From positions 248,001-312,000 of the forward strand of contig NZ_CP060096.1 of NCBI RefSeq assembly GCF_017357865.1: a stretch of 64,000 bases of DNA, in the 5' to 3' direction. The position numbers and the translations under genes are program-made. Below are positions 23,507 to 62,265 of this stretch, in pieces. Position 1 is the first letter of the stretch. Each line of letters opens with the position of its first letter. The DNA is from Aceticella autotrophica. Lineage in GTDB: Bacteria > Bacillota > Thermoanaerobacteria > Thermoanaerobacterales > Thermoanaerobacteraceae. Below the pieces are notes generated by a model that saw only the letters and a list, made by a program, of their open reading frames with translations, searched no databases and was not told the DNA's origin.

Positions 23507-23527
23507 TGTTTTTCCTTCTTTCTTCAT

Positions 23528-38120: not shown

Positions 38121-38297
38121 TTTGTCGTCGACCTTCAATAGTGCAAAAAGTGCCGAGCAACGACGAAATTTTCAGTTTTATAAATTTTTTAAAAAGTATT
38201 GACTTATTAATGTTGTTTGCATATAATTAAGCTATAAGCTTGACATGGACAGGAAATATGTAATATTGGGAATATTTCATAATGTATGCTTAAATGT
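38121..38297 (+). promoter_or_regulatory. CRISPR leader with promoter
   Basis: An imperfect inverted repeat, GTCGTCGACC to GAGCAACGACGA, lies at 38122-38167; similar motifs occur in leaders of Firmicutes arrays. TTGACT at 38199 and TATAAT at 38222-38227 have a 17-bp spacer. The first repeat begins 71 bp after the -10 box. The repeats end in ATTGAAAC, the usual crRNA 5' tag, so transcription left to right is consistent. The remaining intergenic stretch from 37940 is AT-rich with no gene. Confidence 0.85.
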
Positions 38298-41200
38298 GTT
38301 TTTAGCCTACCTATAAGGGATTGAAACTGGTTTGCGTCATACATATGCGCAAGAACGGTATAAGTTTTTAGCCTACCTATAAGGGATTGAAACGGGGAAT
38401 TAGGGTCATATATATTGCATGAAAGGAGGAGTTTTTAGCCTACCTATAAGGGATTGAAACTAGAAAATAATACAAAAGCATTAGAAAGTTTAACTTTGTT
38501 TTTAGCCTACCTATAAGGGATTGAAACAAATAACTCCTGATGGTGAAATGCTTGTTAAATTTACGTTTTTAGCCTACCTATAAGGGATTGAAACTTAGAA
38601 AAAGAAAAAGGAGGAATTAAAAATGTTGTATAGTTTTTAGCCTACCTATAAGGGATTGAAACGTAGTATAATCAGTAATATACAAATTCTGATCCTTTGT
38701 TTTTAGCCTACCTATAAGGGATTGAAACTATTCCTGAACGTTTTGTTTTTGCTAATTTTCCAATGTTTTTAGCCTACCTATAAGGGATTGAAACTCCAAT
38801 AAACCGCCGATTCGCTAATTCCTAATGCTTGTGTTTTTAGCCTACCTATAAGGGATTGAAACGCATGATATTTGGCGGCCACAAGCAAGAGCAACCAAGT
38901 TTTTAGCCTACCTATAAGGGATTGAAACAGAAATTCAGTTTTTCTTGTATTCATAAATCCACCGTTTTTAGCCTACCTATAAGGGATTGAAACCTTGTTC
39001 TAAAGTAATTCTGAACAAGTAAATATATAAAGTTTTTAGCCTACCTATAAGGGATTGAAACTGTCTCTATCCACTCGGCTACTGTAATTTTAGAAGGTGT
39101 TTTTAGCCTACCTATAAGGGATTGAAACTCAGCAATGATAAGAAAAATCATTGCTGAAGAAATTGTTTTTAGCCTACCTATAAGGGATTGAAACTCGTTC
39201 TGCAACAATATCATTCCTACGGTATCTCTATCGTTTTTAGCCTACCTATAAGGGATTGAAACATTTTTGATACATCACCTACAAGACCAGTTGTAAAAGG
39301 TTTTTAGCCTACCTATAAGGGATTGAAACATAACTTTTTATAATTCCTACCAAGAAAATTCCTCAGTTTTTAGCCTACCTATAAGGGATTGAAACTTTAA
39401 ATATGCTACCGGCGTTTTATTATTAAAATTAGTTTTTAGCCTACCTATAAGGGATTGAAACCAGGGAATAGACACATCAAAATACACAGACAAAATGGCG
39501 TTTTTAGCCTACCTATAAGGGATTGAAACAAAATATAGCACTTTCTCTTGAAGAAGTGTAAGTGCTAGTTTTTAGCCTACCTATAAGGGATTGAAACCAT
39601 GCTAAAAGAGATGAAAGAAAGCATATCTATTAAAGTTTTTAGCCTACCTATAAGGGATTGAAACTTTAAACAGTCTTATATCTCAGGCTCAAGCAACTGG
39701 GTTTTTAGCCTACCTATAAGGGATTGAAACAAACAGGGTAATTCGGGTTATGCGTCACCCACAGCAAAGTTTTTAGCCTACCTATAAGGGATTGAAACTA
39801 AAATATTCCTTTCCGGAAATTGTCATTTTATTATGTTTTTAGCCTACCTATAAGGGATTGAAACAGAATATAATGTTGGTTTTTCTTGGCTTAATAATTT
39901 TGTTTTTAGCCTACCTATAAGGGATTGAAACCCTTTTGCATATTCACGACTATTAAAAATCAATTGAGTTTTTAGCCTACCTATAAGGGATTGAAACTAA
40001 TCAAATATGCTAATTTAAGCGGCAATCTATATGGCGTTTTTAGCCTACCTATAAGGGATTGAAACTTTGTGAAAAACTACCACTCCAGTCGATAGTAGGA
40101 GGTTTTTAGCCTACCTATAAGGGATTGAAACTAATAGAATACATTTTTACATACCTCCATTTTTAAATGTTTTTAGCCTACCTATAAGGGATTGAAACTA
40201 ACATCACCTACTACCTACAAAACAGCCTGACAAGTTTTTAGCCTACCTATAAGGGATTGAAACCATATTCATCATAAAATTGCTGCTTATCAAACATATG
40301 TTTTTAGCCTACCTATAAGGGATTGAAACCAAAAGATAATAGAAAATTCGGCAAATAAGTATCTGAGTTTTTAGCCTACCTATAAGGGATTGAAACGGTG
40401 TATCTGTTGCAAAAATGACATACTTTGCCTGCCCGTTTTTAGCCTACCTATAAGGGATTGAAACATATATTTCTTTTTCTTCTTTTCATTTTTTATACAA
40501 GTTTTTAGCCTACCTATAAGGGATTGAAACAATACTTTTTGCATTAATTCTTTAGTTATCTTAGGGTTTTTAGCCTACCTATAAGGGATTGAAACTTTAT
40601 TAAATCTGAAGTAGTCATATTATCGATCTCCAGTTTTTAGCCTACCTATAAGGGATTGAAACCAGATAAATTTCAGCAGTTGAGTTATAGCGAAAAGGTT
40701 TTTAGCCTACCTATAAGGGATTGAAACCAAACAATTTTAAGTGATTTTGGTATAACTAGTGGCTGGTTTTTAGCCTACCTATAAGGAATTGAAACTATCC
40801 TTATAAAAATTAATAATGATATAGTCAAGGAGTTTTTAGCCTACCTATAAGGAATTGAAACATAGGCATATATCCTTTGTATCCTGTAGTAATGTATGGT
40901 TTTTAGCCTACCTATAAGGAATTGAAACGAGTTCTCTGAAAGAGTGAAAGAAAATTCTTATGATAGTTTTTAGCCTACCTATAAGGAATTGAAACTTTGA
41001 AAAAAGCAACAACAGAAGTTGGGTTTTCTTCAGTTTTTAGCCTACCTATAAGGAATTGAAACTATGGCAAGCAGCAGAAGAATATGATTCTGCTTACAAG
41101 TTTTTAGCCTACCTATAAGGAATTGAAACATTTTTAATTATAAAGGTACTCTAATTATATAAAGGGTTTTTAGCCTACCTATAAGGAATTGAAACTTTGG

Positions 41201-44200
41201 ATTTAATCCTGATTCCGCCTGTGCAATTGAGTTTTTAGCCTACCTATAAGGAATTGAAACAGGGGTAGGAGGAGGTGATAATAATGCCAGCAATACGTTT
41301 TTAGCCTACCTATAAGGAATTGAAACATTTTCCATTCCTTAGTAAATTTTATTCCTAAGATAGTTTTTAGCCTACCTATAAGGAATTGAAACATTTTCCA
41401 TTCCTTAGTAAATTTTATTCCTAAGATAGTTTTTAGCCTACCTATAAGGAATTGAAACTTCTAAAAAATCCTCCTAATAGATAACAAGCATTATGTTTTT
41501 AGCCTACCTATAAGGAATTGAAACGAAAATGACAGGGTTAAAAGAATCGTGGAATAAATTGCGTTTTTAGCCTACCTATAAGGAATTGAAACCCTTCTTT
41601 TATGATGCCAAGAACAATTGATTATATTTGTTTTTAGCCTACCTATAAGGAATTGAAACGATGAACAAACCGAAAACAGCAAAGGAAATACAAGCGAGTT
41701 TTTAGCCTACCTATAAGGAATTGAAACCAGGATTATGCAATAACTTATGGATTGAAACAGGAGGTTTTTAGCCTACCTATAAGGAATTGAAACCTGTTAT
41801 ATCAGGTGCTGTTGAAGCTGTAACAACTATGTTTTTAGCCTACCTATAAGGAATTGAAACCGTCAAAACTTGTAACATGCTTGTTATATTTTCCAAGTTT
41901 TTAGCCTACCTATAAGGAATTGAAACAACATTTGTACGCCTGATTTTTCTTCTTCTACCACCCTGTTTTTAGCCTACCTATAAGGAATTGAAACCCAGAT
42001 ATGTCTGTTATAAGTCCTTCGTTTTCCAAGTTTTTAGCCTACCTATAAGGAATTGAAACCAGCCATGAAAGAGGAAATTGCGGAAACGCTGAACCGTTTT
42101 TAGCCTACCTATAAGGAATTGAAACGCGATTGGTGCCGGGAAAAGGGTGTAACCGGAGACCGGTTTTTAGCCTACCTATAAGGAATTGAAACGCCATAAG
42201 TTCTTTGGTTTGCTTTGGGATTTCTATATGTTTTTAGCCTACCTATAAGGAATTGAAACTTTTTAAAAGCTTTTCCAGATGCCGTAATTGTTGAAAGTTT
42301 TTAGCCTACCTATAAGGAATTGAAACTAATTCTCATATAAGTTATTTATAACTTTTTTATAGGTTTTTAGCCTACCTATAAGGAATTGAAACTTCCGGGT
42401 CTACAGCCAGTGTGGACGGCGTTTCCGTGGTTTTTAGCCTACCTATAAGGAATTGAAACTATCACCTAAATTTTTAGCCCAAGAAACATCTTCTGGGTTT
42501 TTAGCCTACCTATAAGGAATTGAAACGTAACGTAATGATAGTCCACTTTGTTTCCTGGAGTTGTGTTTTTAGCCTACCTATAAGGAATTGAAACCACGTC
42601 CTTTTTGATACTGTTTAGCTAAATCTAAAGTTTTTAGCCTACCTATAAGGAATTGAAACATTATTTCACCTTCTTTTTAGTTTGCATAGCCAACAGTTTT
42701 TAGCCTACCTATAAGGAATTGAAACATAATTCTTCCCGTGTCATTTATTTTCATCCTTTCAAAGTTTTTAGCCTACCTATAAGGAATTGAAACAGCGTTT
42801 CCTTGTAATATACTTTTTTTTCTTCATGGTTTTTAGCCTACCTATAAGGAATTGAAACGGTGTTGCTCCTGTTTGTTGTGATACAGCTGATAAGTTTTTA
42901 GCCTACCTATAAGGAATTGAAACCAGTATTAGGAGTTCCAAAAAAACACTTTGTATTATAGGTTTTTAGCCTACCTATAAGGAATTGAAACTTGCATCTT
43001 CTATTCTTATTTCTTCAACACAATTATAGGTTTTTAGCCTACCTATAAGGAATTGAAACGATTTTGCGTGATAAGTACCGGATAAAATTTGTTCAGTTTT
43101 TAGCCTACCTATAAGGAATTGAAACCAAATGTAAGTGGAACTTCTCCAACATTAGATGTTAGTTTTTAGCCTACCTATAAGGAATTGAAACAACTCTTTA
43201 TTAAAAGAATTTAAAAACACAACAGGTTTTTAGCCTACCTATAAGGAATTGAAACTATATCCAAACCATTTAGCATAATTATATATTTCCAAGTTTTTAG
43301 CCTACCTATAAGGAATTGAAACTGTTATTTTTGTAACGGACGAAGATAAAGAAGGTTTTGTTTTTAGCCTACCTATAAGGAATTGAAACTTGCATACAAG
43401 ATGTGGAAATTTTAAAAACTGCAAGTTTTTAGCCTACCTATAAGGAATTGAAACTAATACCTCCTTAATAGTATAAATGTAAGGAATGTGTTTTTAGCCT
43501 ACCTATAAGGAATTGAAACTTCTTTATATTTAAAAATATTTCTCCTATATCATTAGTTTTTAGCCTACCTATAAGGAATTGAAACCAGACATTATACTAT
43601 GAATAATTAGTACAAGAAAAGAGTTTTTAGCCTACCTATAAGGAATTGAAACACCTTCCTTGAAAAACTTATCTACCTGCAATATAATGTTTTTAGCCTA
43701 CCTATAAGGAATTGAAACCTTCTAATATTTCTATATATGATAATTCTGATACTTATGTTTTTAGCCTACCTATAAGGAATTGAAACAAAAAATACAAATT
43801 ATTTTTTTAATTCTTTAAGTCTGTTTTTAGCCTACCTATAAGGAATTGAAACTACGTTTTGGCTGAACAATGAAGAAGACAGGAAAAAGTTTTTAGCCTA
43901 CCTATAAGGAATTGAAACTCTGGCAATTTAAAAATTGGAAATAAAGGCATAAAGCGTTTTTAGCCTACCTATAAGGAATTGAAACTAAACCTGACCCAAT
44001 ATTCTATCCTTCTTGTGATGCAGTTTTTAGCCTACCTATAAGGAATTGAAACATAATTTTTTTAATTTTTTCTTTTGTTTTTCATTAAGTTTTTAGCCTA
44101 CCTATAAGGAATTGAAACATTTAAGTGAGTATGAGAAAGATTTGCGTAATGAAGTTTTTAGCCTACCTATAAGGAATTGAAACTTGGCACACGCACTTTA

Positions 44201-47090
44201 TGATGTTGTTTAGGCAAATGTTTTTAGCCTACCTATAAGGAATTGAAACACACAAAAGAACCTGTATTTCCTAAAAAATCGGGAAAGTTTTTAGCCTACC
44301 TATAAGGAATTGAAACCCGTTTTAGTTATCGAGGGACCACGTATTGCACATAGTTTTTAGCCTACCTATAAGGAATTGAAACTTTTCATCCTTTCAAATA
44401 TGTCATCCGCTCATCGTGGTTTTTAGCCTACCTATAAGGAATTGAAACAACAAAATAAAAAATCTGTCCGGAAAGAAGGCGAGAGTTTTTAGCCTACCTA
44501 TAAGGAATTGAAACATTGATAAATTTTGAAATCTTCGTCATTTTTATCAAGTTTTTAGCCTACCTATAAGGAATTGAAACACATTCGTTTCACCTTCTTT
44601 GTAGTACAAATCTTTTAGTTTTTAGCCTACCTATAAGGAATTGAAACTAGGCTACGAATTTATATCACGTGAGTTATTAAACCCGTTTTTAGCCTACCTA
44701 TAAGGAATTGAAACTGTGCCAAGATTGCTATGATGATAAAATTGACCCAGTTTTTAGCCTACCTATAAGGAATTGAAACATGGATCGATTGGTGTTAATT
44801 TGTCCGTTATCCAATGTTTTTAGCCTACCTATAAGGAATTGAAACACATCCATCATAGGGTTTAACTTATTATCAAATAACGTTTTTAGCCTACCTATAA
44901 GGAATTGAAACGAAACCAATACTTTTTTAAAGCCTTATGACAGACTTGTTTTTAGCCTACCTATAAGGAATTGAAACTTCCTGTTGGCGGTATGGTGTCT
45001 GTAACTGGAGTTTGTTTTTAGCCTACCTATAAGGAATTGAAACGCAGAAAGCCCCGTTATTTATGGCGGGGAGTACGTCGTTTTTAGCCTACCTATAAGG
45101 AATTGAAACTCGCATCTGCTTCTTTTGCTCCTCTTTTGCAAGAGCAAGTTTTTAGCCTACCTATAAGGAATTGAAACTTTTCTTCGCATGAGTGTGTAAT
45201 TTCCAGTACCCTCGTTTTTAGCCTACCTATAAGGAATTGAAACTTTTACCGCCTTTACCTCTTCTAACATGGACGTACAGGTTTTTAGCCTACCTATAAG
45301 GAATTGAAACCCATTTTGTTTGCGATAGATAAAGGCTGGTAAGCCACGTTTTTAGCCTACCTATAAGGAATTGAAACAATAAGCAACAACAGAATTCCAT
45401 ATTTTAGTATATAGTTTTTAGCCTACCTATAAGGAATTGAAACCATTTTTTGTAATAAAAATTACTATTTTTTATGGAAGTTTTTAGCCTACCTATAAGG
45501 AATTGAAACAGAAAATTGGCAAATCCTAATGAATAGGAGGTTTGAGTTTTTAGCCTACCTATAAGGAATTGAAACACAGCAAAACCGAAAGCAACAAAGG
45601 AAATGCAAACGTTTTTAGCCTACCTATAAGGAATTGAAACTATTGTCTTGAATTAAATAAGTTCCCACATCTGACAGTTTTTAGCCTACCTATAAGGAAT
45701 TGAAACTGAAAACTGCAGGCTTGAAAAATGTTTTGTATTGCGAGTTTTTAGCCTACCTATAAGGAATTGAAACTTGATAAGATAGACGTAGGTTTTCTTA
45801 AAGTTAGGAGTTTTTAGCCTACCTATAAGGAATTGAAACAAGACGCTATTCTTATGCCTTGGAAGTTACAAAAGGTTTTTAGCCTACCTATAAGGAATTG
45901 AAACTACCTTCGTGCAAGGGTATAAGCCTTTTGCACTTAAGTTTTTAGCCTACCTATAAGGAATTGAAACAGGTTCTAACACGAGAACACAATATACAAA
46001 ATCTACTCGTTTTTAGCCTACCTATAAGGAATTGAAACAAGTATGAAAAGCTGGCGAACCGTAGTCTTAACAACAGGTTTTTAGCCTACCTATAAGGAAT
46101 TGAAACAAGCAATATTATGACGTTGCAGTACAAATCCTAAAGTTTTTAGCCTACCTATAAGGAATTGAAACCGTTGATAATGAAGTTGTAAAAGTTTTAA
46201 GCGAAGAGTTTTTAGCCTACCTATAAGGGATTGAAACAGCGGTACGTCCTGCGTATTTAATTCTACATCCACCTCGTTTTTAGCCTACCTATAAGGAATT
46301 GAAACCGCATCGACCGTATATAGTTACCCGTCCACTTTCACCGTTTTTAGCCTACCTATAAGGAATTGAAACAAAAAGAGGAGGATTTTAATAAATGAAA
46401 AATGCAAAGTTTTTAGCCTACCTATAAGGAATTGAAACTTGCTTTCGGTTTTGCTGTTGATTTCTTCGCTTGTATGTTTTTAGCCTACCTATAAGGAATT
46501 GAAACGGAATATTGTTTTTATTGTTAGGATTGCTAAAACTAAGTTTTTAGCCTACCTATAAGGAATTGAAACTCCTCGAAAGACATGCGTATGCAGGTGG
46601 ACGAAATGAGTTTTTAGCCTACCTATAAGGAATTGAAACAGGAAAATGAAAAAGCTATTGCAACAGGTGCAGCAGGGTTTTTAGCCTACCTATAAGGAAT
46701 TGAAACGGTTTAAAAACTTTTATAAAATTAAAGATTGGCACGTTTTTAGCCTACCTATAAGGAATTGAAACTATTTAATTTTAGACTTTCTCTTTTTACT
46801 GTCATTGGTTTTTAGCCTACCTATAAGGAATTGAAACCGACAATTAATAATAAAACAGCTTTTTATATACGAGTTTTTAGCCTACCTATAAGGAATTGAA
46901 ACGGAAACCCCAATACGGAAACGCCGGCCACACTGGCTGGTTTTTAGCCTACCTATAAGGAATTGAAACAAGTGTATGGACGCATTGGCTACAAAATCCT
47001 TCAAAGTTTTTAGCCTACCTATAAGGAATTGAAACCAATATGGACTTGATAATAACTTGATTGAAAAAATAGTTTTTAGCCTACCTATAA
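38298..47090 (+). CRISPR. CRISPR array, segment 1 (repeats 1-133, leader side)
   Basis: I count 132 complete 30-bp repeats plus the first 19 bases of repeat 133, with spacers of about 35-38 bp. The consensus begins GTTTTTAGCCTACCTATAAG and ends GATTGAAAC in repeats 1-37 (first at 38298) or AATTGAAAC from repeat 38 (40766) onwards; repeat 120 (46208) is an isolated G variant. Repeats 46 to 48 enclose the same spacer twice. The repeat type is that of I-B/III-B systems in Clostridia. Segment 2 continues after the transposon. Short frames reading F-Q-F-L-I-G-R-L-K-T across this region are translations of the repeat and not genes. Confidence 0.99.
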
Positions 47091-47271
47091 TGTTATATAG
47101 CAAATTATTTCAATATAAAAAATGATATAAAAAGCAAAATAATTTAACCTTATCCATTATGTAAAGTTAATTAATTTTCATATCCATGTATAAGATTGGT
47201 TAATCTTGCCTACAATTATAGAAAAAAATAATGGGGCGGTAAAATTAATTACCTCCCCAAGAAAGGTCACA

Positions 47272-47844
47272 ATGATAATTATAGCCTTTCCAATTAAAAA
47301 TATACATGAATATATCGAAAATAAATCATATTTGTACATAGATACACCATCTGGATGCCCTAATTGCAATTACAACGGTAAATTGCACAGGCATGGCTAT
47401 TACTGCAGGGGTGTCTTTATCGACAATAATTGCATAGATATTACCATAGCAAGAGTTATTTGTCCTGTATGCCATAAAACACATGCTTTAATACCGGACT
47501 TTTTAGTGCCATATTTCATCTATCCTTTATCTGTTATTCTAACTTCCTTGAAAAAAATATTTATCGATGGACATGGCACTACATATGTTGCTGATGAGAT
47601 CATTAAAGAGTTTAATTTGTCTTTTGTGAAACAGCAAAATATCAGTTATTTCAAAATGAGATTTCTCTCGATTATGAATTATATTCACAGCTTTTTTGCT
47701 AATTTTCAAGAATACATTGAAACAATGAACAGTTTATCACCTAAAACTTTGATAAGCAATATTTATAAATATACAAAAGAAAAGGTAAAGTTTAATTTAC
47801 ACTATTTTGATTTGATGAAAGTACATTTTTTCAAAAAAGTTTAG
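47272..47844 (+). CDS. Zinc-ribbon protein of three-gene transposon, copy A
   Basis: The 190-aa sequence is identical to copy B: cysteines 29/32 and 64/67 form a zinc ribbon, followed by helices. Relative to copy B, two bases are missing just before the start (AAGGTCACAATG here, AAGGTATCACAATG there). That shortens the ribosome-site spacing and opens an in-frame ATG at 47206. I keep the start at 47272, the only start shared by both copies. Role unknown; possibly a target-choosing or accessory subunit. Confidence 0.75.
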   Translation: MIIIAFPIKNIHEYIENKSYLYIDTPSGCPNCNYNGKLHRHGYYCRGVFIDNNCIDITIARVICPVCHKTHALIPDFLVPYFIYPLSVILTSLKKIFIDGHGTTYVADEIIKEFNLSFVKQQNISYFKMRFLSIMNYIHSFFANFQEYIETMNSLSPKTLISNIYKYTKEKVKFNLHYFDLMKVHFFKKV

Positions 47845-48074
47845 ACTTAATTCTTGGTAGATTTTTTTTGCTTTTTTGCAAAAGTCATATTTTATCATAA
47901 TTTAATCGCTATTTTTGACTGTATAATTATTTTAATTCGATTAAAAATGTTTAATCTGAATTTGTCTATGTAAATTTATCTAATTCGCATTTTATTTCTC
48001 CACATAACATTTGTGAATGCACCATCATTATCCAGTTAATAATACTTTCAAAGATAATTGAGGAGGCTTTTAGA

Positions 48075-49313
48075 ATGGATAATGATGTTAAACAAAAAAT
48101 TGCTTATTTTAAATTTTCTTTGATAGCACCGCTTATCAATGAAAATTACACTCAGGAAACAGCAAAAGAATATATGGAGGTTATTACTTCTAAGGTTTAT
48201 GATGTGCCTTCGTTAGGTAAAAGAGAATTTTCTCCTAATACAATTAAGACATGGCTTTACTGTTACAGAAAATATGGATTTGAAGGTCTATATCCTAAAA
48301 GCAGATGCGACAAAGGTGCTTCAAGAGTTTTAACTGATGACATTAAAGCCTATATTAAGAATCTAAAAGTTGATAATCCAAGAAGATCAGCTAAGTCAAT
48401 CTATCAGGAACTTTTAGTTAAAAAGTTTATTGACCTTGATAAGGTATCCTTATCTACAATCCAAAGATATCTTCGAAAAACTAAAATATCTACATCAGCA
48501 TTGAATACAAAAGACAGGAGAGCTTTTGAAATGGAGTATCCTAATGACTGCTGGCAATCTGATATATCTATGGGTCCATACTTAGTTATTAACGGCAAGA
48601 AGATTAAGACATACCTTATTGCTTTTCTGGATGATTCATCAAGGTTAATAACACATGCAGAATTTTATGAGACAGATAATGTCATATCACTTATTGATGC
48701 ATACAAAAAAGCTGTTTCAAAAAGAGGTGTTCCTAAAAAACTATTTGTTGATAACGGCAAGGTATTCCAAAGCGAACAATTGCATTTAATATGTGCATCA
48801 TTAGGAACGTCTTTATGTTATGCTGAACCGTATTCGCCAGAATCGAAAGGAAAAATTGAAAGGTTTTTCAGAACATTAAAAGACCAATGGATGTATGGAT
48901 TTGATTGGCAGAAAATATCTTCCATAGACGAATTGAATGAGAACTTGAATAAATATATTGAAGGAATATACCATCAAACAGTACATTCATCAATAAATAT
49001 GAAGCCCATAGAGAAATTCATTAAATATACTGACACGATGAAATTCATAGATTCTAAAGAAGAGATTGATAACATATTTCTCTATAGAGTCAAAAGGCGT
49101 GTAATTAAAGATGCCACAGTATCAATAGAAAAAGTCAAATTTGAAGTGCCAATGCAGTATATCGGTGATTATGTAAATATACGATATTATCCAAAATCAC
49201 TTGATAAAGCATATATTTTTAGTGAAGACGGCAAACTCTTGCAAACAATACATCCCGTAAACAAAATTGATAATTCTAAGATAAGAAGAAAAGAAATAGA
49301 CTTTTCTTTGTAA
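48075..49313 (+). CDS. DDE transposase of three-gene transposon, copy A
   Basis: The protein is identical in sequence to copy B: 412 aa, catalytic D163, D226 and E262 in an integrase fold, N-terminal helix-turn-helix and C-terminal Mu/TniA-like beta domain. GAGGAGG lies 8 bases before the ATG. The gene is intact, which with the identical partner copy suggests recent activity. The ATPase gene starts just after its stop. Confidence 0.93.
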   Translation: MDNDVKQKIAYFKFSLIAPLINENYTQETAKEYMEVITSKVYDVPSLGKREFSPNTIKTWLYCYRKYGFEGLYPKSRCDKGASRVLTDDIKAYIKNLKVDNPRRSAKSIYQELLVKKFIDLDKVSLSTIQRYLRKTKISTSALNTKDRRAFEMEYPNDCWQSDISMGPYLVINGKKIKTYLIAFLDDSSRLITHAEFYETDNVISLIDAYKKAVSKRGVPKKLFVDNGKVFQSEQLHLICASLGTSLCYAEPYSPESKGKIERFFRTLKDQWMYGFDWQKISSIDELNENLNKYIEGIYHQTVHSSINMKPIEKFIKYTDTMKFIDSKEEIDNIFLYRVKRRVIKDATVSIEKVKFEVPMQYIGDYVNIRYYPKSLDKAYIFSEDGKLLQTIHPVNKIDNSKIRRKEIDFSL

Positions 49314-49334
49314 ATGAAGAAAGAAGGAAAAACA

Positions 49335-50138
49335 ATGTTCAATGTATATTATGGATTAACTTTTAATCCATTTTCTAAAGAATGTGATGTAAAATATCAC
49401 TACAAATCACAGGATTATATACAAGCAATGAGCAGATTAGAATTTTTAAAAGACAAAAAAGGATTTGGGCTAATAACAGGAGATCCTGGATCTGGTAAGT
49501 CATATACACTAAAATGCTTTGTAAATTCTTTAAATCCTAATATGTACAAGGTTGTATACATACCGATATCAACGCTTACAGTTATGGATTTTTACAAGTA
49601 TTTGTCCGACGGCCTCGGATTAATACCGAAGCATAGAAAATGCGATATGTTTCGCCAGATACAGGATGTAATATTAAGCTATCATTCAAAAAACATAACT
49701 CCCGTTATCATCGTTGATGAGGCTCAGTTCATAAGCAACTCAATCCTTGATGATTTACGCATTATATTTAATTTTGACATGGACACAAAAAATTATGCAT
49801 TACTTATATTATCAGGACAGACACAATTAATTATACAGTTGAATAGACAAGCACATGAAGCATTAAGGCAGCGAATAGTTTTAAATTATTCATTTAAGGG
49901 TTTAAACAAAGATGAAACAAAAGAATATATAACATCCAGATTAAAATGTGCAAACTGCAATGAAACAATATTTACTGATGACGCAATTGAATTAATATAT
50001 TCAAGCACAAATGGATATTTAAGAAAAATTAATTTACTTGCAGAAATGTCAATGATATTAGGAGCTAAAGAAAGTCAAAAAACTATAAATGGCGAGCTAG
50101 TATTTAGAGCTCAAAGCGATATAAATATTACAGAGTAA
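49335..50138 (+). CDS. AAA+ ATPase of transposon (TniB/TnsC/ExeA-like), copy A
   Basis: Walker A G-D-P-G-S-G-K-S, Walker B V-I-I-V-D-E-A-Q and the arginine-containing E-A-L-R-Q-R-I mark an ExeA/TniB-type AAA+ protein. It would recruit target DNA and activate the DDE enzyme. Start chosen at the ATG behind AGAAGGA; the ATG at 49314 is an alternative. It differs from copy B by Asp for Asn in I-F-T-D-D-A. It is followed by the folded RNA candidate. Confidence 0.88.
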   Translation: MFNVYYGLTFNPFSKECDVKYHYKSQDYIQAMSRLEFLKDKKGFGLITGDPGSGKSYTLKCFVNSLNPNMYKVVYIPISTLTVMDFYKYLSDGLGLIPKHRKCDMFRQIQDVILSYHSKNITPVIIVDEAQFISNSILDDLRIIFNFDMDTKNYALLILSGQTQLIIQLNRQAHEALRQRIVLNYSFKGLNKDETKEYITSRLKCANCNETIFTDDAIELIYSSTNGYLRKINLLAEMSMILGAKESQKTINGELVFRAQSDINITE

Positions 50139-50154
50139 TTGTATGTATGAGTGT

Positions 50155-50286
50155 ATCTTCTTCTCCGGAGGGGATAGGGAAATGCAGGGGTGCAACCTGA
50201 GCACTTCGGAGAGGGTTGGTGCCATAAAACAACTTTCTCCCGGTTCAATCCGGGGGAGAAGGTACATTCAAGATGGCATTTACCCA
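50155..50286 (+). ncRNA. Candidate structured RNA in transposon copy A
   Basis: Three helices can be read. CTCCGGAG (50163) pairs with CTTCGGAG (50204). GTGCCAT (50219) pairs with ATGGCAT (50273). Inside the latter, CTTTCTCCCGG (50233) pairs with CCGGGGGAGAAGG (50250) around a TTCAAT loop. The segment is GC-rich in an AT-rich element, has no open frame, and follows the ATPase gene on the same strand. It has no T run at its end and does not look like a simple terminator. Confidence 0.5.
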
Positions 50287-50483
50287 AAAAGCGTAAAACC
50301 CCAAAATGAATATTCTTAAAACAATAGGACTATGATTTTAGAATAATATGTTCTTATAGATTGTATAATGTGAATTTTTGAATAAAAATAATATTTAGTG
50401 ATTGTTTAATCTTTATACTTTTTTATGATAAGTCAGCTTGTTTAATCTCTATTTTTTAGGATGTGATATCTTGCTGTTTAACA

Positions 50484-51222
50484 CTATAAGGAATTGAAAC
50501 ACATTTAACTTTGATGTAAAACTTTGACTTATAAGAGTTTTTAGCCTACCTATAAGGAATTGAAACACAGCATCGAATAGCAATTTCTCATTCTTTTTTC
50601 TGGTTTTTAGCCTACCTATAAGGAATTGAAACCAATAGGAAAAGGTGGTAGAATTGGCGCACAAATTTGTTTTTAGCCTACCTATAAGGAATTGAAACTC
50701 TCTTCATTACTCATTTGTACCACCTCGCTCTTTTAGGTTTTTAGCCTACCTATAAGGAATTGAAACATCTTAATCCATATTTTGCAAGTGCAGCTTGAAA
50801 ATGTTTTTAGCCTACCTATAAGGAATTGAAACTAATGCCAAGGCATAAAGCCTCTTTTGGCAAGGACTGGTTTTTAGCCTACCTATAAGGGATTGAAACT
50901 GGTATTTTATTACAAAAAATGACTAAACTTGTTACTGGTTTTTAGCCTACCTATAAGGGATTGAAACAAGACATGTTTTTCTGACGCAAGCTTTTTTATC
51001 CTTTGTTTTTAGCCTACCTATAAGGGATTGAAACTGGGGAGATCCCCGCAACTCTCAATGCAGTACGATAAAGTTTTTAGCCTACCTATAAGGGATTGAA
51101 ACATTGGTATTGAAAAATTAAATTTGTAAGCATCTACTGGGTTTTTAGCCTACCTATAAGGGATTGAAACTGTTATTTATTCTCTTTTTCCCCCACATAT
51201 TAAAGGTTTTTAGCCTACCTAT
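50484..51222 (+). CRISPR. CRISPR array, segment 2 (repeats 133-144, distal end)
   Basis: The segment begins with the last 17 bases of repeat 133, then full repeats 134-143 and a degenerate repeat 144 (51206-51222) that keeps only GTTTTTAGCCTACCTAT. Eleven spacers are present. Repeats 133-138 end AATTGAAAC and repeats 139-143 end GATTGAAAC. Loss of the 3' half in the last repeat is normal for the old end of an array. Confidence 0.97.
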
Positions 51223-51239
51223 GGAAAGCGGAAAGAATT
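51206..51239 (+). repeat. Degenerate array terminus, copy 1
   Basis: TTTTTAGCCTACCTATGG followed by AAAGCGGAAAG is the array end. The same sequence, with one-base gaps, recurs at 52698-52722 on the other side of the 463-aa gene. Confidence 0.85.
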
Positions 51240-51276
51240 ATATTAAAATTAATATTAAAAAGAGGAGGGTTTTTAA

Positions 51277-52668
51277 ATGGCACATATCAACAGAAAATAC
51301 TTTATTTTTAGGACAGATATAAAAAATAGAAGTAAATTATATGAAGAATTAATTAACGGACGACTAAGACAAGGTTGGGGAATACCCGGAACAAGTATAG
51401 TAGATAAATTCGGTAATATAATTGATAAAAATAATTGGATTGAAAACTACAAAAAATCTGCTAAAAAATTATGGAATGTAGATATTACAGATAAGGATGC
51501 GAATATAAGATATGATATTCTTTCTTTAATGCTCCAGATAAAACCTAATGATGTAATTATAGTACCTAAAATGCCAACAGATCAGACTTTTATTATTGCT
51601 ATTGCAGAAAATGGATATAGCTTTGAACCTTTGAAAATATGTAATAATGATTTTGGACATATAATTTATGTTTTCAAAAAATATATCAAAAGTTTTACTT
51701 ATGATGATGACATAAACACATATATAATTTCTTCTAAATTTAAAGCTTATCAGGCAGCTATAAATAACATTAAGAACACAACTGTAATAAATGCAATTGA
51801 AAGGCTTTTGGAAAAAACATCTTCAAAAAGAGATACATACTTTAATAGTGTTTTTTATACTCCCAAAATTATTGTTACTTTAAAAACTCCTGAAAAAATA
51901 GATTCTATCGTATATAAAGCAGCAGATAAAATATTAAAAATGATTAACTTCAAAAAAGACCTTGATTTTTTCAATAGAGATGATGATAGAATAATATTTT
52001 CACCAGAATTTGAAAAAAAACTTGAAGAAATGCATCCAACTATTATTGAAGAGGTTTTAGATGGGAAAAAACCTGAAGGAGAACGAAAAATTGATGATAT
52101 TATTGATGATATTCTTGGATACTATGTTCCTATGAGTTCTCCAGGTAAAATAGTACTTAGATGGGAAAGAATAGGTTGTCTTTTCTGGCATATAATTTTT
52201 AAATCATCTTTCATAAAAACACAACTCCAATATAGTTTTCTTGAGAATATTGCGATTTTATTTGTTCTAAATACATATATTCATGAGCAATTTCACAATT
52301 TTTGCGATGTTTGCAGACACTTATTTTCTACAAAATTCGATAGAAACACTGAGGAAGCATTAGCAGTAGCATGGAGTTATATAAAGTTAAACGAGATGAA
52401 AGAAGAAGGTAACAATGAAATTGATATAATTCCTGATAATATTTTCTATGATATTATGAAAAGAATATATAGCTATAATCAAAATGGCTATAAGGATTGG
52501 ATCTATTATCAAACAAAAACTACCTTTGAGCAAGGAATATGCAGATATTTACTACCTAAATCGGCAAATTGTTTTAGTGCGAATGACATTAATATAGGGG
52601 AAATAATTATGAAGTTAAATGAACCTATTCTTTATGAGGGTAATGTATTAAAGTTATTAGAACCTTAG
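51277..52668 (+). CDS. Uncharacterised 463-aa protein with HEXXH motif, at the CRISPR array end
   Basis: I do not recognise this protein as a named family. The N-terminal ~115 residues contain L-Y-E-E-L-I-N-G-R-L-R-Q-G-W-G and I-K-P-N-D-V-I-I-V-P-K-M-P, a pattern resembling the EVE/PUA-like or Mrr N-terminal modules of restriction-type defence proteins. A charged middle region follows. The C-terminal part has Y-I-H-E-Q-F-H (residues 335-340) and 19 residues later E-E-A-L-A-V-A-W-S-Y, a HEXXH...E pattern of zinc metallopeptidases. No signal peptide or membrane segment is visible. GAGGAGGG precedes the ATG, 55 bp after the last repeat, with no clear promoter or terminator between. It could be read from the array promoter. 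Function unknown; defence-related proteolysis is a hypothesis. Confidence 0.7.
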   Translation: MAHINRKYFIFRTDIKNRSKLYEELINGRLRQGWGIPGTSIVDKFGNIIDKNNWIENYKKSAKKLWNVDITDKDANIRYDILSLMLQIKPNDVIIVPKMPTDQTFIIAIAENGYSFEPLKICNNDFGHIIYVFKKYIKSFTYDDDINTYIISSKFKAYQAAINNIKNTTVINAIERLLEKTSSKRDTYFNSVFYTPKIIVTLKTPEKIDSIVYKAADKILKMINFKKDLDFFNRDDDRIIFSPEFEKKLEEMHPTIIEEVLDGKKPEGERKIDDIIDDILGYYVPMSSPGKIVLRWERIGCLFWHIIFKSSFIKTQLQYSFLENIAILFVLNTYIHEQFHNFCDVCRHLFSTKFDRNTEEALAVAWSYIKLNEMKEEGNNEIDIIPDNIFYDIMKRIYSYNQNGYKDWIYYQTKTTFEQGICRYLLPKSANCFSANDINIGEIIMKLNEPILYEGNVLKLLEP

Positions 52669-52697
52669 ATTTTAATATGTTTGTTTAGAGATAGATA

Positions 52698-52722
52698 TTT
52701 AGCCTACCTATGGAAGCGGAAG
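52698..52722 (+). repeat. Degenerate array terminus, copy 2
   Basis: TTTAGCCTACCTATGGAA followed by GCGGAAG matches the terminus at 51209-51235 apart from single-base gaps, in the same orientation. The 463-aa gene is thus enclosed by direct repeats. The rest of 52723-52947 is AT-rich with no gene. Confidence 0.85.
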
Positions 52723-52947
52723 TCAGAAAAATAGGGATTGGAGGTCAAAAGTTAAATTTGTTCATAGCAGTCGAAATAAATTAATAGATCTAAAATATGA
52801 TTTCCGACTTTTGTTCACTTTTTAAAATGTGATGTTTAAACATAAAGGATGAATTTTTGGGGGAAATCTTGTCTCCTGAAATTCAGATATATAAGGCAAT
52901 AGTAATTGCCAAAAATTTATATTAAAGAAAGGGGAAAGGGAAAAGAA

Positions 52948-55900
52948 ATGCTTAGTATGTTTGCCGACACAAAAAAGCGGTTTCCAAAGATAATAGCATT
53001 AATTATTGCTATATTAATAATAATGCAAAGTATTTCGCTAACCGCATTTGCTGAATCTAATAACTTGTTGACTATACAATCCACACAATCGACAACCAAA
53101 ATATTTAACCAGGGTTCTTTAATGTCAGCAGCTCCAAAGATTGTAACAGGGGGGGATGGTGGAGGTACAGTAAGTGTACCCGTTGTTTATAACAAATTAA
53201 AAAAAGCATATAGTGTAAATAGCCCAATGTCGCCACCAACGACATATGGAATAACGGTAAATAATGCAGTATATGCAAATGTATATACAGACAAGCAGGC
53301 AGCGCCAGCAGGAGGTACAGTGACGATAAACATAAGCGATATAAAGCCAGGATACCAATTCAAATCAATAACGGTGAAAGATAGCAGCGGGAGCCAAGTA
53401 GCAACAACAGAAGTAAAAGCAGGACAGCAATATACATTCACAATGCCTGCAAGTGCAGTAATAGTATCTGCGGAAATTGAACCAACGACATATGGAATAA
53501 CGGTAAATAATGCAGTATATGCAAATGTATATACAGACAAGCAGGCAGCGCCAGCAGGAGATACAGTGACGATAAACATAAGCGATATAAAGCCAGGATA
53601 CCAATTCAAATCAATAACGGTGAAAGATAGCAGCGGGAGCCAAGTAGCAACAACAGAAGTAAAACCAGGACAGCAATATACCTTTACAATGCCTGCAAGC
53701 GCAGTAATAGTATCTGCGGAAATTGAACCAACGACATATGGAATAACGGTAAATAATGCAGTATATGCAAATGTATATACAGACAACCAGAAAGCGTCAG
53801 CAGGAGATACAGTGACGATAAACATAAGCGATATAAAGCCAGGATACCAATTCAAATCAATAACGGTGAAAGATAGCAGCGGGAGCCAAGTAGCAACAAC
53901 AGAAGTAAAACCAGGACAGCAATATACCTTTATAATGCCTGGAAGTGCAGTAACAGTAGAAATAATTTTACAAAACAATAATCCTTTACAAGTACTAAAT
54001 GGAAGTAGTAGAAATGTTGGTATAATATGTAATAACTATAATATCCAAAGTATATCGAACGGTTTTGAGATACATTTTTCTGATTCTAATTCGTCTCTGA
54101 GAAGTACTGATTATCCTAATCAGAAATTTGAAGTAATTGATCATTCCAAAGTTTCAAGCGATATTCTTAAAAAATATGACACTCTTTTGCTTTTTATGTG
54201 CAATCCATCATCTTTAACTGCAATTCAAAAGCAAAACATTACAGACTGGATAAAAGGCGGAGGGAAATTAATTATATGGGATTCAGATGCGGTACCTGAA
54301 GGTGAGTCATGGGATTACACTTGGTTAGGTTATCCATTTAAAAGTAATTGTCCTGGTCAGACAGGTTCCACTGGTCTTGGCTTGCATATAGTCGAGGAAA
54401 ACCAACTTTCTAGTAATGATCCTAACTCTCCTTATTATATAGATACAAATGTTATAAATAGTAGAACAGATGCGGTAGGAGATTCCAATGTAATGGTTAC
54501 TTATAGTCCGGGATGGTTTATAGATATGTTAGGAGAAAATAATAATAAAGTGAAGGGGCCGGTTCATGCTTATGCATTTTTAGGTTCTGGACTAATTATT
54601 TACAGCGGTCTTGACTGGGATGATGTGACGGGAATTGGTTATGGGCTCGGTCTTGGGGATCGTTATGGAGTTTATATGTTAAAAAAAATACTTATGCTGG
54701 AACTGAATGTTGTTCCAGGCAAAACTGTACTTCCTTGCAGCATTTCAGGAAAGGATGCAGTCGATAATTTGATGAGGCAATACCCCGGGTGGTTTAATAA
54801 AGATAAAGGTCCAAAACCAGATTCAAGAGTAGCTGAACCGATAAATACTGCAACAGGTGCACATGAACTTAGATTGACAATGTTGAGTGTTAAAGGTACA
54901 CAACCAATATCTTTAGACGTATGTTATAATAGTTTGCTTCTAAATAAAGGTCCGATTGGAAAGGGATGGGATCATAATTTTGAAACCTATCTTGAAGTAG
55001 AGCCAAGCGGTGATGTAATTATTCATTGGGATGCTAATCATAAGAATACTTTTGTTGAGTATGGTAAGGACCAGTTTGCACCCCAGGATATTTCGATGCG
55101 TTTTAATACATTACGCAAGAATATTGATGGAAGTTATGTTTTGACTTGTAAAGATCAAACAACTTATACTTTTAACAGTAATGGACAAATGATTCAGAAA
55201 GCTAATGGTCATGGGCAGTCTTTAGAAATGACTTATGATAGTAATGGTCATCTTGCAACAGTAAAAGATTCGCTTAGTGGTCAAGGTTTTAACTTCCATT
55301 ATAATACAGATGGTTTGATTGATAATATAAGCGATACTTTAAACCGGAAAGTGTTATTTGTCTATGATGTCAGTCAAAACTTGCTCAGCATTACGGATGC
55401 AGAAGGGAAAACAGTTCATTACTCATATAATGAGGATGGGCGCATTTTGACCAGCACTGATGCCGACGGAAAACAGATTTTCAGTAATACTTATGATGAT
55501 AAAGGACGCGTAATTGCTCAGGATGACGGTGTTACCGGGAACCAAATAGCTCATTTAAATTATGATGAAACCAGCGATCCAGGCAAACTTATCACAACAT
55601 ATACGAACCGCAACGGTAAAACAGTCGTATATACTTATGACCAAAATTACAATATGCTAAGTTTAAAAAATGAGCTTGGTTTAACCACAATTTTTGATTA
55701 CGACGCTTCTGGCAATTTAATCAAAGTAACTGATTCGGCTGGAAAAGTAAGCAAATACATCTACGACACATATGGTAATTTAACAGGAGTAACTGATCCG
55801 GCAGGAAATACGACAAAGATGACATATGATGATAGAAATAATCTCACATCGGTAGAAAATACAGCCGGAAAGAAAATTATTTACACCTATGATGCTAACA

Positions 55901-58728
55901 ATAATCCGATTAGCATTACTGACCCGTTTGGGAATATCACATCTTTGACATATGATACAAACGGGATGTTGCAGACTGTAAAAAAACCAGGTTCAGGGAT
56001 TTACACCATTGCTTATCAAAACGGTTTAGTTAAAATGCTTACTGATCCAGTTGGTAATACTATTACTTATGGTTATGATGCGGCAGGACGACCAATAAAA
56101 ATAACAGATGCTGCAGGCAAAGCTGTTAACATAGCTTATGATAATTGCGACAGAATAACAAGCATTATTGATCCTATGGGTAATAAGAGGACATATTCTT
56201 ATGATAGCCGTGGCAATATGCTTAATGTGACGGATCCAAATGGTAATGTTACTCATTTTTCCTATAATGGAAATAATAAACTAACAAATGTCAAGGATGC
56301 TCTTGGGAATGTGACAAAATACGAATATGACGGGGAAGATCGTTTGATTAAGATTACTGATGCATATGGTAATGTATTTACATTAACGCGTGATGAAAAA
56401 GGCAGGATTGTTGGCATAACCGATCCGACAGGAAGAACCCAAGGTTTTCAATATGACAATGTAGACAATCTGTTAAGTATGACAGATGCCAATGGAGCAA
56501 AGGTAATTGAATTTGGATATGATATGTTAAATAATCCTGTTACTATTAAAGATGCTTTGGGCAATACCGTTACAAACCGTTATGATAATCTAAACCGCCT
56601 AATAGAAAGTATCGACCAGCTTGGACGAAAGGCTCAGTATATTTATGATGACTTGAACCGTTTGGTTTCATCTTTAGATGCAGTTGGCGGATCGAGTAGT
56701 CAGAGTTTTGATGCGGATGGCAATAAGATAAACATGGTTGATCCTAACGGCAATAAAATAAGTTTTAAATATGACAAAGCCGGGAGATTAATAGAAGCAA
56801 CATCGGCAGATGGTTGCAAATCAAGTTTTGCTTATAACAACAGAGGATTAATCTCCGAATCGACAAACGGGCGTGGTCAAAAAACGACTTACAACTATGA
56901 CGACAATGGAAGGTTAGTTAGTTTCACAGACCAGGAAGGAACAGTGTCTTATACCTATGATGCAAATGGAAACGTCTTGACAGTAAGCGATGCAAATGGG
57001 ATATCTGTGCGCGAATATGATGCGCTGAATCGAGTAGTAAAATACACTGATGGGCGTGGCAATACCATTCATTATGTCTACGATGCCGCAGGTAATCTGA
57101 TTACCCTTGCATATCCTGACGGCAAAGAAGTTCACTATCAGTATGATGCCGCTAACCGTCTGACAAAGGTTACTGACTGGGCTAATCGTACTACAACTTA
57201 CCAGTATGATAATAACGGTCGTCTTATGAAAGCATTACAAGCCGATGGCAGTATTTTAACAATGGATTATGATAGTGCCGGACATTTGATTAAACAGACA
57301 GATGTAAGCGCCAATGGGAATGTGATAGCTCAGTATGATTATACTTACGATGCTGCAGGAAATTTAAAAACTGAAGATTCAGCTGCAATAAAGCCACCGA
57401 CTTCAAGTTCAAACACATCAATAACCTATACTGCAGGTAACCGTATTACTGCGTTCAATGGTCGAACCGTTCAATATGATGATGACGGCAACATGACTTA
57501 CGGACCTTTGAAAGGCTTAATGGTGAAGTATAGCTATAACTCTCGCAATCAGCTTGTTAGTGTAGGTGGAACAAGTTACATCTATGATGCAGAAGGCAAC
57601 CGTATTGCACTTATTGAAGGGAATAACAGGACAGACTATATTATTAACCCGGAAGCTACATTGAGTCAAGTTCTTGTAAAAAAAGATTCTCAAGGTCGAC
57701 AGACATATTACATTTATGGTATAGGTCTTATCGGGCAGGAGGAAGCTGACGGTACCTATCATACTTACCATTATGACATGCGTGGAAGCACTATAGCTTT
57801 GACTGATCAAACAGGGAAAGTAACCGATGAGTTTTCTTATGCACCTTACGGAGAACTGTCGTATCACAAAGGTAATACATTCACACCGTTTTTATACAAT
57901 GGTCGCGATGGTGTAATGACCGATGAAAATGGCTTGTATTACATGCGAAATAGGTACTATAACACCGATATCAAACGATTTATCAATCAGGATTATCTGA
58001 TTGGAAGCATAATCTACGGTCAGACATTAAACCGCTATGCATATGTTAATGGAAATCCTGTTCTATATATAGATCCTAATGGTAATTTTTGGGGATATGA
58101 TGATTTAGTTGTATTCCTTGCCGGTGGTGTTGCAAATGCAAGTTTTGATTATATTTTTGATTATATTGACGACAACATTTCGGATAGTTCTTTTAAGCCA
58201 GATTACCGTCAAATTATTGGTAGTTTTATTTTAGGAGGAATAGGTGCCCTTGCGGCGTATGACCTTCATGTCCCTATCCTTAAAGGACCTGTTACGGATG
58301 GTATTATTGGTTTACTAAGTAGCATAAAAGATCAATATTTTAAATCTCACACGGTAAATTGGAAAGATGCGCTATTGGATGCAGGTATAAGTATTCTTGG
58401 AGGCATTTCAGAAAGAGGAGCAATAAAAAGAATAAAGAAAGGTAATATAAAAAGATTCTTTAAAGAATTAGAGAAGAATGTCTCTACTTATTTAGATGCT
58501 ATAAAAGATAAAGATTTTATAAATTTAACATTAAAATCTTTTATAATTACATCAAAGCAAAAATTAATAGAAAATGGAATAGAATATTTATTTGAACAAT
58601 GTTATAAATCAATATTGAAAAATTTAGGTGACTATTATAAGGATGCTCAAAAATCTCTTAATGAATTGGTGGAATCCATGATAGAATATTCAGATGTAGT
58701 AAACCCAATAGGAAGTACTACAAAGTAA
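52948..58728 (+). CDS. Large secreted RHS/YD-repeat protein with C-terminal variable domain
   Basis: The 1926-aa protein has a Sec signal (K-K-R-F-P-K-I-I-A-L-I-I-A-I-L to F-A). Then come three nearly identical 82-aa beta repeats (about 97-342), a ~240-aa flavodoxin- or glutamine-amidotransferase-like domain (about 350-590, with Y-D-T-L-L-L-F and G-G-G-K-L-I-I-W-D), and a DUF6531-like start (A-E-P-I-N-T-A-T-G). More than 25 YD repeats follow, then the RHS core ending R-Y-Y-N-T-D-I-K-R-F-I-N-Q-D and N-P-V-L-Y-I-D-P-N-G. The last ~215 residues are unrelated, helix-rich, with a glycine-rich hydrophobic part. RHS shells often enclose a C-terminal toxin, but no toxin family or immunity gene is recognised. 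I start at the ATG at 52948 behind GGGGAAAGGG. Confidence 0.92.
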   Translation: MLSMFADTKKRFPKIIALIIAILIIMQSISLTAFAESNNLLTIQSTQSTTKIFNQGSLMSAAPKIVTGGDGGGTVSVPVVYNKLKKAYSVNSPMSPPTTYGITVNNAVYANVYTDKQAAPAGGTVTINISDIKPGYQFKSITVKDSSGSQVATTEVKAGQQYTFTMPASAVIVSAEIEPTTYGITVNNAVYANVYTDKQAAPAGDTVTINISDIKPGYQFKSITVKDSSGSQVATTEVKPGQQYTFTMPASAVIVSAEIEPTTYGITVNNAVYANVYTDNQKASAGDTVTINISDIKPGYQFKSITVKDSSGSQVATTEVKPGQQYTFIMPGSAVTVEIILQNNNPLQVLNGSSRNVGIICNNYNIQSISNGFEIHFSDSNSSLRSTDYPNQKFEVIDHSKVSSDILKKYDTLLLFMCNPSSLTAIQKQNITDWIKGGGKLIIWDSDAVPEGESWDYTWLGYPFKSNCPGQTGSTGLGLHIVEENQLSSNDPNSPYYIDTNVINSRTDAVGDSNVMVTYSPGWFIDMLGENNNKVKGPVHAYAFLGSGLIIYSGLDWDDVTGIGYGLGLGDRYGVYMLKKILMLELNVVPGKTVLPCSISGKDAVDNLMRQYPGWFNKDKGPKPDSRVAEPINTATGAHELRLTMLSVKGTQPISLDVCYNSLLLNKGPIGKGWDHNFETYLEVEPSGDVIIHWDANHKNTFVEYGKDQFAPQDISMRFNTLRKNIDGSYVLTCKDQTTYTFNSNGQMIQKANGHGQSLEMTYDSNGHLATVKDSLSGQGFNFHYNTDGLIDNISDTLNRKVLFVYDVSQNLLSITDAEGKTVHYSYNEDGRILTSTDADGKQIFSNTYDDKGRVIAQDDGVTGNQIAHLNYDETSDPGKLITTYTNRNGKTVVYTYDQNYNMLSLKNELGLTTIFDYDASGNLIKVTDSAGKVSKYIYDTYGNLTGVTDPAGNTTKMTYDDRNNLTSVENTAGKKIIYTYDANNNPISITDPFGNITSLTYDTNGMLQTVKKPGSGIYTIAYQNGLVKMLTDPVGNTITYGYDAAGRPIKITDAAGKAVNIAYDNCDRITSIIDPMGNKRTYSYDSRGNMLNVTDPNGNVTHFSYNGNNKLTNVKDALGNVTKYEYDGEDRLIKITDAYGNVFTLTRDEKGRIVGITDPTGRTQGFQYDNVDNLLSMTDANGAKVIEFGYDMLNNPVTIKDALGNTVTNRYDNLNRLIESIDQLGRKAQYIYDDLNRLVSSLDAVGGSSSQSFDADGNKINMVDPNGNKISFKYDKAGRLIEATSADGCKSSFAYNNRGLISESTNGRGQKTTYNYDDNGRLVSFTDQEGTVSYTYDANGNVLTVSDANGISVREYDALNRVVKYTDGRGNTIHYVYDAAGNLITLAYPDGKEVHYQYDAANRLTKVTDWANRTTTYQYDNNGRLMKALQADGSILTMDYDSAGHLIKQTDVSANGNVIAQYDYTYDAAGNLKTEDSAAIKPPTSSSNTSITYTAGNRITAFNGRTVQYDDDGNMTYGPLKGLMVKYSYNSRNQLVSVGGTSYIYDAEGNRIALIEGNNRTDYIINPEATLSQVLVKKDSQGRQTYYIYGIGLIGQEEADGTYHTYHYDMRGSTIALTDQTGKVTDEFSYAPYGELSYHKGNTFTPFLYNGRDGVMTDENGLYYMRNRYYNTDIKRFINQDYLIGSIIYGQTLNRYAYVNGNPVLYIDPNGNFWGYDDLVVFLAGGVANASFDYIFDYIDDNISDSSFKPDYRQIIGSFILGGIGALAAYDLHVPILKGPVTDGIIGLLSSIKDQYFKSHTVNWKDALLDAGISILGGISERGAIKRIKKGNIKRFFKELEKNVSTYLDAIKDKDFINLTLKSFIITSKQKLIENGIEYLFEQCYKSILKNLGDYYKDAQKSLNELVESMIEYSDVVNPIGSTTK
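53238..53975 (+). repeat. Three tandem 246-bp repeats in the RHS gene
   Basis: Units start at about 53238, 53484 and 53730 and are almost identical at the DNA level. Each encodes T-T-Y-G-I-T-V-N-N-A-V-Y-A-N-V-Y-T-D and ends near the next T-T-Y-G. A more diverged fourth copy occurs in the next gene at about 59219-59464. Confidence 0.95.
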
Positions 58729-62233: not shown

Positions 62234-62265
62234 AGAAATTTAAGATAAAGGGTGAAAATAAAAAA

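Follow-up and report, generated by a model that had tools for sequence, protein, structure and literature searches.

A 463-aa protein with a HEXXH motif is encoded directly after a CRISPR array in Aceticella autotrophica, and this position raises the question of whether the gene is functionally tied to CRISPR or has used the array as a place to insert. The sequence-only reading had favoured the first answer, proposing an undescribed CRISPR-linked effector that was captured as a cassette at the distal end of the array. The window, which is the whole stretch of 64,000 nucleotides that was analysed, belongs to a genome of one 2.27-Mb contig that contains two further arrays with the same repeat. 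Features of the locus are collected in Table 1.

Table 1. Features of the array, its terminus and the 463-aa gene, with positions counted from the first letter of the window
Feature	Position	Strand	Basis or remark
CRISPR array, leader side	38298..47090	+	repeat GTTTTTAGCCTACCTATAAGGRATTGAAAC; leader directly upstream, about 38180-38297
Transposon, TG...CA ends, inside one repeat	47091..50481	+	6-bp duplication CTATAA
CRISPR array, leader-distal part, 10 repeats	50537..51170	+	repeat listing
Left copy of degenerate terminal repeat	51206..51235	+	GTTTTTAGCCTACCTATGGAAAGCGGAAAG
Inserted segment, 1.46 kb	51236..52697	+	26 % GC vs window 33 %; absent at two paralogous termini
Ribosome binding site AGGAGG	51263..51268	+	sequence; 8 nt 5' of ATG
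463-aa ORF	51277..52668	+	intact; Mrr-type N-terminal module and HEXXH C-terminal domain
N-terminal module, residues 1-188	51277..51840	+	common to Mrr_cat restriction proteins
C-terminal domain, about residues 268-463	52078..52665	+	unnamed family; profile and protein searches
HEQFH motif, residues 336-340	52282..52296	+	sequence and homologue alignment
EEALAVA, residues 359-365, candidate third metal ligand	52351..52371	+	homologue alignment
Right copy of terminal repeat (ancestral array terminus with flank)	52698..52721	+	TTTAGCCTACCTATGG-AAGCGGAA, in full TTTAGCCTACCTATGGAAGCGGAA
Terminus flank at all three arrays	52722..52917	+	80-86 % identity; then surface-layer-type gene

Comparison of the reading frame with the termini bore out the earlier description of an intact gene between two copies of the array terminus. 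The start of the gene, which had been placed 55 bp after the last repeat, was corrected according to the point of reference: the ATG lies 106 bp past the last canonical repeat, 41 bp past the degenerate terminal repeat and 52 bp past ...CTATGG. The residue numbers of the HEXXH motif (H336/E337/H340) were confirmed.

The N-terminal part of the protein carries the presumed recognition module of Mrr-type (type IV) restriction enzymes, and no Pfam match to the Mrr_cat nuclease domain was found in the 463-aa protein. In a genome of the same family (G011), a 339-aa protein matches residues 2-188 with its front part at 36 % identity (E 9e-39 for one genome), and its rear is an Mrr_cat nuclease. A second relative (G304) shares 39 % identity and is broken by a stop codon, with the same layout of front module and nuclease as read from its sequence. 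Identity of 30 % over residues 1-132 was found to a plasmid-borne 'restriction endonuclease' of Nitrosococcus (WP_013028125.1). The likeness to modules of restriction proteins that had been noticed at the N-terminus is therefore upheld, at 36-39 % identity to Mrr-type fronts. An HKD+Snf2 protein and a DruE-type helicase come after the G011 gene and place it in a defence setting. Judged by the partners with which it occurs, the module probably recognises foreign or modified DNA.

Relatives of the C-terminal domain were found by profile and protein searches in Chromatiaceae, on a Thiodictyon plasmid and in a Thiodictyon MAG with a second, divergent copy, in a Chromatiaceae MAG, in Lamprocystis and in Thiocapsa. 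One more genome was added by a class-level search, and one genus of the window's class contains relatives of 373-377 aa. Scanning of genome contigs recovered none with the single protein and five with a two-sequence alignment. The family is rare and patchily distributed, being present in 4 of 398 genomes of the window's own phylum (own genome included), in 1 of 369 genomes of the gammaproteobacterial class sample besides the query genome and, again leaving the query genome aside, in 0 of 398 in the sample of the phylum to which that class belongs. The fusion of the N-module with the HEXXH domain is known from one genome only. In the literature, of which coverage was incomplete, neither this family nor an intact gene located at a CRISPR terminus was found described.

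All eight members outside the same-class genus have the motif HExFHxxxD...EEA(L/M)A, with H336, E337, F339, H340, D344, D355, E359, E360, A361, A363 and A365 invariant. The HExxH and a downstream glutamate are thus conserved across these members, as in zincin metallopeptidases. Within the same-class genus, H, E and H are replaced by R, F and Y in all three aligned rows, and D344 and EEA are kept. This genus has six loci (L015-L020, for example L015:9255-10388 on the minus strand), the aligned ones lacking HEXXH and retaining the rest, and in all six the gene stands among non-defence genes and adjoins a large secreted-type gene. By their sequences, these relatives look like an inactivated side branch, and a repurposed pseudoenzyme is possible. 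The expectation that HEXXH is conserved among homologues therefore holds from this genome to the gammaproteobacteria but fails in one genus of the same class.

Sequence searches of Pfam, NCBIfam, PDB and PADLOC gave no match naming the C-terminal domain as a peptidase, and a search of PHROGs with the protein and family alignments gave no identification. No phage match was obtained by tblastn with the whole protein, nor any in scans of viral contigs for the N-module and the C-terminal domain. AlphaFold models, built from six-row alignments, were of low confidence (pLDDT 46 for the whole protein; pLDDT 59 and pTM 0.61 for the C-terminal domain). With these models, Foldseek gave no match at E <= 0.001 and VIA none at Z >= 5, and the lists returned consisted of unrelated helical proteins. 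The lack of a fold match should not be taken to indicate a new fold.

These results bear on an alternative that is unlikely but carries appreciable weight, namely that the helical C-terminal domain binds metal or has a purely structural role, as in a regulator or a non-peptidase metalloenzyme, and that HEXXH is not a peptidase site. The all-helical, low-confidence models, the lack of a match to any peptidase family and the genus that retains the domain and EEA yet loses H, E and H all speak for this alternative. Against it, the alignment of the eight members has just 24 invariant positions, and H336, E337, H340, E359 and E360 belong to them despite identity of only 24-29 % between the window domain and the others. 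The spacing also argues against it, as a glutamate comes 18-20 residues after HExxH and the two stand on consecutive predicted helices.

Genomic context was compared among the homologues. All seven stand-alone HEXXH genes outside the same-class genus (L013, L024-L027, L057 and L058) adjoin a defence-type or DNA-modification gene, and an IetA-like AAA ATPase, assigned by PADLOC match, is near four of the seven and near a broken copy (L028), counts that were taken without a random-locus baseline and from contexts that are not independent, since the carriers are mostly Chromatiaceae. The HEXXH gene is preceded, in this order, by an IetA-like AAA ATPase and a TmtA-like giant ATPase in L013 and by an IetA-like AAA ATPase and GmrSD in L025; it is also preceded by an IetA-like AAA ATPase in L058, by a PDDEXK_4/PDC-S26 protein in L024 and by Nmad3 in L026, and in L057 GmrSD lies directly downstream of it. 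In L027 a GmrSD spread over several frames stands ahead of it, and of two IetA-like genes there, one is ~4.2 kb upstream and the other ~6 kb downstream on the opposite strand. In L028 an IetA-like gene and a PDC-S11 protein stand ahead of a HEXXH gene broken by a stop. Relative to the ATPase of L013, identity was 75 % for L025, 39 % for L058 and 46-81 % over the aligned parts for the copies in L027 and L028. Upstream gaps of 1-98 bp in five loci suggest that the HEXXH genes there belong to operons.

At L013, L025, L027, L028 and L058, a variable gene (TmtA-like ATPase, GmrSD, PDC-S11) stands between the IetA-like ATPase and the HEXXH gene, an arrangement that may represent a modular defence system. 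As judged from broken frames, the system is decaying in two Thiocapsa genomes, with GmrSD split over several frames at L027:7668-9783 and the HEXXH gene interrupted by a stop and a frameshift at L028:9860-10611. In the IetAS defence system, IetA supplies the ATPase and works with IetS, a subtilisin-like protease. By analogy, the IetA-like context offers the strongest functional hint of a protease role for the HEXXH domain. The window gene has no IetA-like ATPase as a neighbour, and nowhere in its genome is there a close one (best 30 % over 177 aa).

The same survey addresses the proposal of a CRISPR-linked effector, which would work with the genome's type III system, be co-transcribed from the array and be activated on target recognition. 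CRISPR arrays were absent from the DNA examined around all 17 homologue loci (3-20 kb each), of which 14 belong to the C-terminal domain and three to the N-module, and scans with Pfam, NCBIfam and PADLOC detected no CARF, SAVED or other cyclic-oligoadenylate sensor domain in the 463-aa protein. In favour of such a link, the gene comes straight after the array and has the same orientation, a promoter scan near it gave sites no better than those in shuffled sequence, and the downstream region 60782-63096 contains a Csm6-like gene and Cmr1; against this, surface-layer-type genes part it from the cmr genes and the gene is missing from the genome's other two arrays. The neighbourhoods of the homologues thus count against a CRISPR link, and the proposal is improbable. 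The sequence-only reading had named homologues away from CRISPR and defence genes as its own refutation; the first part of this was observed and the second was not, as HEXXH-positive relatives adjoin genes of defence type.

The leader of the array is homologous to those of the two other arrays and all three leaders are on the left, which places the 463-aa gene at the leader-distal end. The array is interrupted by a transposon with genes for a DUF6431 protein, an integrase-core transposase and an AAA ATPase. Two further copies of this transposon are found near the other two arrays (G000:C1:204033-206965 and 351794-354726), and a pair at 22703-24766 on the minus strand was likened to the transposon genes solely by ORF lengths (412 and 274 aa). 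The left copy of the terminus is 30 nt long and in phase with the array, with a degenerate 3' half. The exact terminus 16-mer is found at only two places in the window, the left and right copies, and the other 143 matches are two bases off and represent normal repeats. Alignment of the left copy with downstream DNA scored 21, as against 13 for the best of 500 randomised sequences, and the duplication is far above chance. The duplication noticed earlier is thus real but imperfect, extending over ~25 nt with small indels between the copies.

The two paralogous arrays close with the same terminus, GTTTTTAG[C/T]CTACCTATAGAAAGTGGAAGTCAG..., at G000:C1:214468 and 357825, with no gene between array and terminus, and the ~220 bp past these termini are 80-86 % identical to window positions 52698-52917. 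In the window (52698-58728) and at both paralogous sites, this flank is followed by a surface-layer-type gene, which suggests joint duplication of the array terminus and that gene. The changes GG and GCGG are common to both window copies and absent at the other two arrays, indicating that the window copies derive from one terminus. On this sequence comparison, the ancestral flank lies with the right copy and the ancestral 5' end with the left. The empty paralogous termini and the bracketing copies together identify the 1.46-kb segment as a later insertion at the leader-distal end, as the description of a captured cassette had implied. Its low GC content and the empty sites are best read as marks of a foreign-looking, horizontally acquired gene. 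Terminal inverted repeats were not found in the segment, nor was the terminus pattern found in viral contigs. Recombination with the terminus as homology and repeat-duplicating integration would both fit the footprint.

A special form of integration, in which Cas1-Cas2 inserted the 1.46-kb DNA at the terminal repeat as a 'giant spacer' and duplicated that repeat, is very improbable. We know of no spacer of this length, and although the insert is bracketed by duplicated repeat-derived sequence, with a left copy that is exactly one 30-nt repeat long and in phase, the right copy starts with ATA instead of the repeat boundary GTT and the duplication covers ~25 nt instead of 30. Adaptation also normally takes place at the leader end, whereas this insert is at the opposite end, and homologous recombination would yield the same picture. 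A CreTA-like addiction unit, in which a crRNA-like antitoxin made from the bracketing degenerate repeats keeps the enclosed gene repressed, can practically be dismissed: ectopic degenerate repeats are the CreTA hallmark (PMC9458426), but both terminus copies lack the 3' half of the repeat and the tag ATTGAAAC and are unfit for such an antitoxin, the same degenerate terminus occurs without a gene at the two paralogous arrays, and the CreTA toxin, as described there (PMC9458426), is an RNA, whereas a 463-aa protein is encoded here.

Two further observations concern arrays of this type. In one paralogous array (L023, G000:C1:210533-212262), 27 leader-proximal repeats vary in their last 6 nt, on the crRNA tag side, in successive blocks (TTTGCT, TGGATA x3, TGGCTA, TGCCTG x2, TGCTGA x2, TGTTTG x3, TGTTTC x9, TGTAGA, TGTTAC x5, then TGAAAC to the distal end), with their first 24 nt and a unit length of ~66 nt unchanged. 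This pattern suggests that the spacer-side integration cut moved several times and that later acquisitions copied each new position. The viral contig IMGVR_UViG_3300016457_000449 starts with three repeats of the exact array type (L029:1-183), the last spacer of which runs into a phage gene, and also encodes a reverse transcriptase and variable formylglycine-type proteins (DGR-like). The contig is probably a chimeric assembly through a protospacer match; such a match, if true, would name a target phage.

With moderate confidence, the 463-aa gene is explained as a horizontally acquired, stand-alone restriction-type defence protein with a putative zinc peptidase in the place of the nuclease. The N-module, which elsewhere is fused to an Mrr nuclease, would bind foreign or modified DNA, and we infer for the C-terminal domain, from its HExxH and downstream EEALA, a gluzincin-like zinc peptidase that replaces the nuclease. 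Binding of foreign DNA would unleash or direct this putative peptidase onto a phage or host protein, with abortive infection or inactivation of the invader as the outcome. In the gammaproteobacteria, the peptidase-like domain is a separate subunit, and the adjoining IetA-like ATPase or restriction-type protein would supply sensing or driving. The segment was inserted once at the leader-distal terminus, and ~25 nt of the terminal repeat were thereby duplicated; recombination that used the terminus as a handle would be the simplest route, and the array would be a landing site for the gene rather than its partner.

A broader proposal is put forward more tentatively: the HEXXH family may comprise undescribed defence-associated metallopeptidases that act as one exchangeable module: in purple sulfur bacteria a subunit of its own next to IetA-like ATPases and various restriction-type proteins, and in the window protein a domain fused to an Mrr-type DNA-sensing module, with proteolysis replacing DNA cleavage. 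What is new here is the combination of known kinds of module with a previously unnamed domain. If the proposal is true, restriction-type sensors, whose known outputs are otherwise nucleases, gain a protease output, and a new peptidase family is indicated that has the IetA-like ATPase as a testable partner. The trailer end of an array, with paralogous empty sites in the same genome, would be a landing site for a defence gene, and adjacency alone is a poor ground for calling a gene 'CRISPR-linked'.

Among known systems, the type III CRISPR protease effectors CalpL and Craspase possibly have proteolytic defence in common with the window protein, which differs in having neither CARF/SAVED nor TPR-CHAT and in homologues that are not linked to CRISPR. 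Zincin metallopeptidases of gluzincin type likewise have HExxH followed by a glutamate, which in the C-terminal domain stand on consecutive predicted helices, but neither the sequence nor the low-confidence models of the domain matched a known zincin family. Five loci match the IetAS composition of an ATPase and a putative protease, with the HEXXH gene intact or broken, whereas the IetAS protease is of the subtilisin-like serine type and the protease candidate here is of the HEXXH family. IetAS also places its ATPase beside the protease, whereas the window protein has no ATPase neighbour and carries its own N-module. The Mrr-type restriction proteins (L005/L021, L012 and the Nitrosococcus protein) have the same N-terminal ~190 aa, including the GRLRQGWG motif, and end in an Mrr_cat or restriction nuclease where the 463-aa protein has its HEXXH domain.
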